Shown here: in pieces, positions 34,725 through 36,789 of the stretch
Layout of the letters: each line of letters begins with the position of its first letter
Numbering within the stretch: position 1 is the first letter of the stretch
DNA from: Rhodospirillaceae bacterium
GTDB taxonomy: Bacteria > Pseudomonadota > Alphaproteobacteria > UBA8366
Length of the DNA: 64,000 nt
NCBI GenBank assembly: GCA_002716125.1
Contig: PAZH01000007.1
Coordinates: forward strand, 28,540-92,539
Reading direction: 5' to 3'
Notes under the pieces: model-generated
Database searches by the model: none
What the model saw: only the letters and a program-made list of their open reading frames with translations
What the model was told of the DNA's origin: nothing
Position numbers and translations under genes: made by a program

Positions 34725-34754
34725 TTGCCCTTTGCCCTCAATCCCGCCTAATAT
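34725..34754 (+). promoter_or_regulatory. Candidate sigma70-like promoter for leu leader transcript
   Basis: TTGCCC (34725-34730), 18-nt spacer, TAATAT (34749-34754); predicted TSS about 34761, next to leader ATG 34764. Confidence 0.5.
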
Positions 34755-34763
34755 CCGCGCGCT

Positions 34764-34820
34764 ATGACGAAATTGACCACCATTCGGCTTCTTGGCCTTC
34801 GACTTATCGGCCCGGCGTAA
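34764..34820 (+). CDS. leuL: Leucine-rich leader peptide MTKLTTIRLLGLRLIGPA (attenuation leader for leuA)
   Basis: 18-codon ORF with 5 Leu codons (one TTG, four CTT) clustered before the stop, upstream of leuA, downstream of a promoter-like sequence; too short for the ORF track. Confidence 0.7.
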   Translation: MTKLTTIRLLGLRLIGPA

Positions 34821-35013
34821 CTGCGTCGGGGCGTCCGGCTGCGTGGCCGGGCAAGGATAAGAGAAGAACAAGTCGAAAGGGATGGTCGGAAGATGATCGT
34901 CGAGAAATCACACAAGAATAACACACACAGGGATCGGACCGCTTTTGTTCGGGGGATTTCTGATGGCATTTCGTATTCCACCGCGTTGCAACGTCAGCTG
35001 CGACTTAGCGGCG

Positions 35014-35045
35014 GCTATCGGGCCTGATCGCGGCTGCCCGATGGC
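35014..35045 (+). terminator. Candidate attenuator hairpin upstream of leuA
   Basis: GCTATCGGGC (35014-35023) pairs with GCCCGATGGC (35036-35045), 10 bp with one T/G wobble, followed by TGTATTTG. Confidence 0.4.
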
Positions 35046-35112
35046 TGTATTTGCGCCGCTCGCAAACGAGACTACACAGCAACGCTAAAAGATATTTTCA
35101 GGAGTAAGACCC

Positions 35113-36789
35113 ATGGCCTTTATGCCAGTCGAGAAATACAAACCGGCCGCGACAGTCGAACTGCGAGACCGAACTTGGCCCGATAAGACGATTACGAAAT
35201 GCCCGATCTGGTGCTCTGTCGACCTGCGGGACGGGAACCAGGCATTGATCGAGCCGATGGGCTCGGAGCGCAAGCTCAAGATGTTTAAGACGCTCTGCGA
35301 TATGGGCTTCAAGGAGATCGAAGTTGGGTTTCCGGCAGCGTCCGAAACAGATTTCGATTTTTGCCGTCAGATAATCGAAGAAGACCTGATCCCCGACGAC
35401 GTGGTGATCCAAGTCCTGACGCAGTCCCGCGACGAGTTGATTCGCCGTACGTTCGAAGCCATCGACGGCGCCCATACGGCGATTGTCCATCTGTACAACT
35501 CGACGTCGACGACACAGCGCCGGGTCGTCTTCAACCTCGACATGGACGGGGTGAAGAAAATCGCGACCGATGGCGCGGAGTTGATAAAGGAATTGGTACC
35601 GACGGTGCCGAATACGAAGATTATCCATCAGTATTCGCCCGAGAGTTATACGCAAACCGAACTGCCTTATGCGATGGAAGTCTGCGAGGCGGTGATGGAC
35701 ATCTGGCAGCCGACACCCGAGAACAAGACCATCATCAACCTGCCGGCGACGGTGGAAGTCGCGACGCCGAACGTCTACGCCGATGGTATCGAGTGGATGC
35801 ACCGCAACTTCTCGAAGCGCGAGAACGTCATCCTGTCGCTGCATCCGCACAATGACCGGGGCACAGGCGTCGCCGCGACGGAACTGGGCATCCTGGCTGG
35901 GGCCGACCGGGTCGAAGGCACGCTTTTCGGCAACGGCGAGCGCACCGGGAATGTAGACGTGATCACCTTGGCGATGAATATGGTGAGCCATGGGCTCGAC
36001 TCGCAATTGGATATGCGCAACATGCGCGAGCTGCGGGCGACGGCCGAGTACTGCAACCAGTTGCCGGTCCATCCCCGCCATCCCTATGCGGGCGATCTGG
36101 TTTTCACGGCCTTTTCCGGCAGCCATCAGGACGCCATCAACAAGGGCCTGAAGGCGATGGAAACGCAGAACAGCGAAGAATGGGATGTGCCCTACCTGCC
36201 GATCGATCCGGCGGATGTCGGGGCGAGCTACGAAGCGGTCATCCGGATTAACAGCCAATCCGGCAAGGGCGGCATTTCCTATATCATGGAAACCGAGTTC
36301 GGTGTTCAGATGCCGCGTGCCCTGCAGGTTGAGTTCTCCGGGGCTGTCCAGAAGATTTCAGATTCATCGGGTGAGGAGCAAACGCCGGAGGATATCTGGA
36401 AGGCGTTCGACCAAGAATACTTGAGTGCGAAAACACCCTACGAATTCGTTGAACATCAAACACGCGCCGACACGCATGCGTCGGAAAAGCGTTTGATGAC
36501 TGCGAAGGTCAAGAAAGACGGTGCCGAGGTCACGATCGAAGGGTCCGGCAACGGGCCGATCGATGCCTATGTCGATGCCCTCAAGCAGGACAGTGGCAAG
36601 GACATCAAGGTGTTCAGCTATTCCGAACACTCGGTCGGCGGCGGCTCGGACGCGACGGCCATTGCGTTTGTCGAAACCGAAGTCGACGGCAAACATCTCT
36701 ATGGCATCGGCCAGGATCCCAACATCGTCTCGGCATCGCTGATCGCGGTCACCTGCGCGGTCAACCGGGCCATCCGGAATGGCAATTAG
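35113..36789 (+). CDS. leuA: 2-isopropylmalate synthase
   Basis: 558 aa; 'PIWCSVDLRDGNQALIEPMG', 'LSLHPHNDRGTGVAATELGILAGADRVEGTLFGNGERTGNVD'; RBS caggag. Confidence 0.96.
   Translation: MAFMPVEKYKPAATVELRDRTWPDKTITKCPIWCSVDLRDGNQALIEPMGSERKLKMFKTLCDMGFKEIEVGFPAASETDFDFCRQIIEEDLIPDDVVIQVLTQSRDELIRRTFEAIDGAHTAIVHLYNSTSTTQRRVVFNLDMDGVKKIATDGAELIKELVPTVPNTKIIHQYSPESYTQTELPYAMEVCEAVMDIWQPTPENKTIINLPATVEVATPNVYADGIEWMHRNFSKRENVILSLHPHNDRGTGVAATELGILAGADRVEGTLFGNGERTGNVDVITLAMNMVSHGLDSQLDMRNMRELRATAEYCNQLPVHPRHPYAGDLVFTAFSGSHQDAINKGLKAMETQNSEEWDVPYLPIDPADVGASYEAVIRINSQSGKGGISYIMETEFGVQMPRALQVEFSGAVQKISDSSGEEQTPEDIWKAFDQEYLSAKTPYEFVEHQTRADTHASEKRLMTAKVKKDGAEVTIEGSGNGPIDAYVDALKQDSGKDIKVFSYSEHSVGGGSDATAIAFVETEVDGKHLYGIGQDPNIVSASLIAVTCAVNRAIRNGN

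Follow-up and report, generated by a model that had tools for sequence, protein, structure and literature searches.

Leucine leaders upstream of leuA have been known since 2005 in Actinobacteria, where Seliverstov et al. (PMC1262725) described the LEU element, and their mechanism is still unsettled because no terminator was found and mutations gave puzzling effects. In the LEU element, a leader ORF with a run of leucine codons precedes a long-form leuA without a terminator, the run is complementary to the Shine-Dalgarno (SD) sequence of leuA, and a pseudoknot with the leader stop codon in its loop lies just past the Leu codons. LeuL1, the leuA leader of Streptomyces lividans, is leaderless and also lacks a terminator (PMC8079986). 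For Streptomyces coelicolor, as far as the citing passage in PMC1262725 goes, the effects of leuA leader mutations are inconsistent with classical attenuation. Among alphaproteobacterial systems, rhizobial trpL (rnTrpL/peTrpL of Sinorhizobium meliloti; PMC10117765) is a leaderless leader peptide of an amino acid biosynthesis gene, and the Caulobacter ilvL attenuator (PMC4117421) has a leader peptide for branched-chain amino acids. The former is a transcription attenuator, whereas the terminators expected of such a system were not found at the leuA leader studied here; the latter was described with a rho-independent terminator and belongs to a different gene (ilv). Outside amino acid biosynthesis, in the erm translational attenuators, among them that of ermB with two leader ORFs in its regulatory region (PMC8274638), a stalled leader ribosome frees a hidden downstream ribosome-binding site (RBS), as proposed below; there, however, the signal is a macrolide drug rather than charged Leu-tRNA, and the resistance gene is unrelated. 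Our literature search found no description of such a leuA leader in Alphaproteobacteria; the main survey of proteobacterial attenuators, by Vitreschak et al. (2004), lay outside that search. The leaders match no Rfam covariance model, either in the window or at nine related leuA loci.

The window, the whole 64,000-nucleotide stretch of DNA from a Rhodospirillaceae bacterium that was analysed, carries a long-form leuA encoding a 558-aa 2-isopropylmalate synthase (35113..36789, forward strand, as are all features given here), with AGGAG at 35100..35104 as its SD. We searched 60 relatives and 385 genomes of the class with this LeuA and fetched the matched upstream regions, in which the leuA start codons are those of automatic annotation. 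The leader region contains two conserved ORFs with biased leucine codons, a fixed promoter spacing, a pseudoknot and complementarity between each leader and its cognate RBS, and it contains no terminators. With moderate confidence, we read it as a two-stage, leucine-sensing translational attenuator. It resembles the LEU element in having a Leu-run leader ORF before long-form leuA, no terminator, and a pseudoknot around the leader stop codon just past the Leu codons. It differs in lying in Alphaproteobacteria, in having a second complete module in tandem, in codons that pair with the RBS of the leader that follows, and in the sequences of the pseudoknot; the complementarity to the leuA SD is significant across relatives but is not seen at the SD of the window. 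The LEU design was visible in the corynebacterial, Nocardia and Nonomuraea loci that we fetched. Our RNA model R1 gave no match at E ≤ 1 to the leuA leaders of Corynebacterium and Nocardia, and since it misses these actinobacterial members, the similarity is architectural only, without demonstrated common descent.

The first module begins with a promoter (TTGCCC 34725-34730, an 18-nt spacer and TAATAT 34749-34754; together 34725..34754), and 9 nt separate its TAATAT from the ATG of leader peptide 1, MTKLTTIRLLGLRLIGPA (34764..34820; ATG 34764, TAA 34820), in which CTT encodes four of the five Leu residues. Promoter and 18-codon ORF had both been described in these terms by the sequence-only reading, and the ORF turned out to be strongly conserved; the refuting condition named there, an ORF without conservation in relatives, did not apply. 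Homologous leaders of 17-23 aa lie directly 3' of a TTGACC/TAnnnT promoter in relatives, and in all 21 independent two-leader loci ATG1 follows the -10 box of a (C)TTGACC/TAnnnT promoter by only 6-10 nt. Because of this spacing, leader 1 mRNA is probably leaderless, as had been suggested earlier. Of 131 leuA upstream regions, 94 have a short ORF that starts with ATG and has 4 or more Leu among 10 residues, which is more than chance would give: the reverse strand yields 9 and dinucleotide shuffles yield 9.4. Its Leu codons are rare ones: CTT or CTA accounts for 74 of 114 in leader 1 and for 27 of 718 in the leuA gene (Fisher p = 4e-53). The Leu run of module 1, often CTNCGACTTA, leads into a hairpin that encloses the leader stop codon. 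In the predicted fold of the window, this hairpin 1 (34811..34830) overlaps leader 1 at its end, stop codon included, and a second small hairpin follows 3' of the leader (34833..34852); these separate hairpins replace the pairing of GCCCGGC (34810) with GCCGGGC (34846) that had been put forward from the sequence and is absent from the fold.

Between leader 1 and leuA lies leader ORF 2, encoding MIVEKSHKNNTHRDRTAFVRGISDGISYSTALQRQLRLSGGYRA (34893..35027; ATG 34893, TGA 35027). In relatives, module 2 consists of an ORF of 25-60 aa with CTNCGACTWA at its end, followed by the pseudoknot. The frame of the CGA CTT codons is open back to an ATG in 29/29 loci, compared with 9/58 for the other two frames, and in a second set of loci, found with the RNA model, the ATG is in frame in 23/24 (other frames, 8/48). 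CTT or CTA makes up 43 of 77 Leu codons of leader 2, again against 27/718 in leuA (Fisher p = 2e-31); overall, CUU and CUA contribute 56-65% of Leu codons in the leaders and 4% in leuA. No part of the leader region is better conserved than the pseudoknot and the CGACTTA motif (35001..35007; Arg-Leu codons), the latter common to both leaders in relatives. Leu codons are few in leader 2 of the window (ALQRQLRL). A frameshift at CUUA before the pseudoknot, suggested by the layout, was set aside; in one locus (L024), a stop codon comes right after CUA. In leader 2 of another locus (L004, about 1336-1370), additional GLRLVGPISGP residues come with a separate hairpin, CGGCCCGATTTCGGGGCCG, and resemble a partial third copy of module 1.

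Since no terminator was found, the leader codons were tested for complementarity to the downstream RBSs, with the same segments swapped between genomes as the control. The segments compared were fixed in the course of the analysis, and a second locus set served as replication. Leader 1 paired with the RBS of leader 2 at a mean of -18.3 kcal/mol, compared with -13.7 kcal/mol for permuted pairs (z = -6.1, n = 21), and none of 5000 permutations was as low; the second, independent set gave z = -3.5 (p = 0.0006, n = 16). Folded in context, stage 1 scored 0.51 versus 0.30 with swapped leaders (Wilcoxon p = 2e-6). Leader 2 was complementary to the leuA RBS in the first set (z = -3.4, p = 0.0004; p < 0.0005 with a 16-nt SD window) and to the SD window in the second (z = -2.9, p = 0.0026), whereas significance was lost there with the wider 33-nt leuA RBS window (p = 0.19), and the in-context effect of stage 2 was weak (0.51 versus 0.36, p = 0.04). 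Control pairings in the first set were mostly null, with leader 1 against the leuA RBS weakly low (z = -2.1); those in the second set were null (leader 1 with leuA RBS, z = 0.0; leader 2 with RBS2, z = +1.3). In single-leader loci, where both the annotation and the picking of ORFs are noisy, the leader was not significantly complementary to the leuA RBS (p = 0.20). Stage 2 is lineage-dependent.

Stage 1 stands out clearly in the window, stage 2 only weakly. The segment 34764-34905 folds into one long stem (z = -4.4, reached by 0/200 shuffles), in which the codons of leader 1 are joined to the start of leader 2 and its RBS; in the duplex test, the residual z of the window is -3.3. The arms of this stage-1 base stem are 34766..34808 and 34856..34901, and within them 34779-34785 face 34880-34886. 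A possible stage-2 base stem (34983..35085), weak and taken from a local fold, joins GCGTTGC (34983-34989) to GCAACGC (35079-35085); its 7 bp stop 14 nt before the leuA SD, which is left uncovered, and the duplex test found no pairing of the leader 2 codons with that SD (z = +0.5). Stage 2 may therefore be degenerate in the window.

From these features, we infer ribosome stalling, switching between structures and a leucine response whose direction would be as follows. Leader 1, probably leaderless, would be translated from the 5' end of the mRNA, and its codon region would otherwise mask the RBS of leader ORF 2 by pairing with it. The leader 2 codons 5' of CGACUUA would pair with the leuA RBS region in a stem that closes over the pseudoknot containing the leader-2 stop codon. 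When leucine is plentiful, ribosomes would clear each leader fast and both base stems would re-form, so that translation of leuA would be poor. A shortage of Leu-tRNA would stall a ribosome at the rare CUU/CUA codons of leader 1, which would free the RBS of leader 2; the ribosome on leader 2 would then stall in its turn and free leuA. For this tandem layout, with leader 1 aimed at the RBS of leader 2, the nearest parallel by analogy is the two-leader erm genes.

Untranslated RNA is open to Rho, the principle behind polarity. Rho-dependent control, in which translation of the leader or its lack decides termination before leuA, could draw on this, as the leader is long and has no intrinsic terminator, and an untranslated ORF 2 or leuA would expose RNA to the factor. 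Such control gives no reason to expect, however, that each leader is specifically complementary to the RBS after it, and we consider it unlikely as the main explanation, although it could add to the cascade.

Classical ribosome-mediated transcription attenuation, in which a stall at Leu codons blocks a terminator before leuA, was what the sequence-only reading had proposed, and it appears somewhat less likely still. Hairpin 1 does follow directly on the Leu codons of the leader, with the stop codon in its loop, and T-rich tails come after it in a few relatives (GGGGTTTTT in L036, GGGTTTATT in L046). In the window, however, no terminator-like site was found, and none follows either hairpin; none of 21 relatives has 6 or more T among the 10 nt that come after hairpin 1, and the complementarity points to the RBSs instead. 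Hairpin 1 is also separated from leuA by over 200 nt with a second ORF; the gap of 290 nt between leader and leuA is occupied by the second conserved leader ORF (34893-35027), which also accounts for the long gap that had been remarked on as atypical. Of the earlier proposal, then, the conserved leucine leader peptide, its rare Leu codons, its probable leaderless start and its strict link to leuA are supported, whereas a transcription attenuator is not, and the second ORF and the pseudoknot had been missed.

The 3' end of ORF 2 lies inside a hairpin that had been marked at 35014-35045, and its arms, GCTATCGGGC and GCCCGATGGC, are indeed present at 35014-35023 and 35036-35045. To judge from the alignments, this hairpin and a downstream strand form a conserved H-type pseudoknot. 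Its stem S1 (35012..35047) pairs 35012-35021 with 35038-35047, with the leader-2 stop codon in the loop, and is paired in 96% of cells; stem S2 (35030..35059) pairs GCGGC (35030-35034) in the loop with GCCGC (35055-35059) on the 3' side. In an alignment of 28 sequences, S1 and S2 together were paired in 94% of cells, a level reached in 0/500 shuffles, and 7 pairs had changed on both sides. A second alignment of 65 sequences was made with a model containing S1 only; there, 8/10 S1 pairs had changed on both sides, and S2, which was not fitted, was paired in 80% of cells with a covariation score reached by 2/500 shuffles. Covariation support is thus strong for S1 and moderate for S2. A rival nested stem for the 3' strand of S2 was rejected (51% paired, the shuffle level), as was the idea that this strand hides the leuA SD as a general rule (p = 0.84). 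Rhizobium leguminosarum (L247) nevertheless has GCTCCTCG, which complements the SD of its leuA.

The two-stage model leaves the role of the pseudoknot unaccounted for, which we count against it together with the mutation effects cited for S. coelicolor. The pseudoknot and CGACUUA could form a protein-binding site to which leader translation is secondary; they are the best conserved elements, and LEU elements have been suggested to involve a protein (PMC1262725). Yet a conserved frame, a bias to rare codons and promoter-proximal leaderless starts would be unnecessary for binding, and the sequence of S1 varies with compensation, making this explanation very unlikely. Arrest by the nascent LRLxGxR peptide itself, regardless of Leu-tRNA supply, would suit the LRLxGP and LRLxGGRR endings that recur in both leaders, but it is highly improbable, as several lineages have other endings (LLPELLLGLAL, LLLGLLLGA) and the RNA stems dictate the GP/GGRR part.

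A long-form LeuA match was found in 112 of the 385 class genomes, and the RNA model matched 34 of the 385, once each; all 30 matches that were fetched lie directly upstream of long-form leuA. At the level of the order, the model matched 31 of 44 genomes. Five members of the window's own family (G004, G005, G008, G009 and G010) have none, and their only LeuA match is distant, at about 28% identity. Single-module versions ending in SLLLLGLTRGCRVR and a stop codon, with a differing S2 (GAGGAGC/GCTCCTC), occur in Sinorhizobium, Rhizobium and Shinella; in Sinorhizobium meliloti (L240:563-688), an unannotated 41-aa ORF before leuA ends in SLLLLGLIRGCRVR and a stop codon and is accompanied by a pseudoknot. 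One relative (locus L023, genome G033) has kept leader 1 and lost module 2 wholly, a natural one-stage variant. Loci L166, L168, L170 and L172, from one family, have a single leader of another kind, CTTCGACTTACRCGCCCTTAGGCG, whose loop is complemented by a strand farther downstream (CTAAGGGAC or similar), and in L168 the leader codons pair with the leuA RBS over about 12 nt. In the betaproteobacterium Cupriavidus metallidurans, a Leu leader ending in SSLLLSLPIGCRA and a stop codon precedes long-form leuA (L242, upstream of the match at 901), and the design may therefore extend beyond Alphaproteobacteria and Actinobacteria. Downstream of leuA in R. leguminosarum (L247:2387-2566), we noted a sub-threshold match to the Brucella sRNA CI27 (RF02600). 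A locus titled Mesoflavibacter sp., a Bacteroidota name (L182, CP051228.1), encodes a LeuA 67% identical to that of the window, and its title is probably mislabelled.

We tentatively propose that the two stages form a serial cascade that needs two successive leucine-starvation events, an AND-like and low-leak arrangement, and that it arose in Alphaproteobacteria by tandem duplication of a LEU-like module. The duplicated alphaproteobacterial design, in which codons pair with an RBS at each step, provides a concrete and testable mechanism, and one module, two modules and shifted pairing registers offer natural variants of the leader design. If the proposal is true, two serial stalls would let RNA and ribosomes, by themselves, respond sharply and with little leak when an amino acid runs short.
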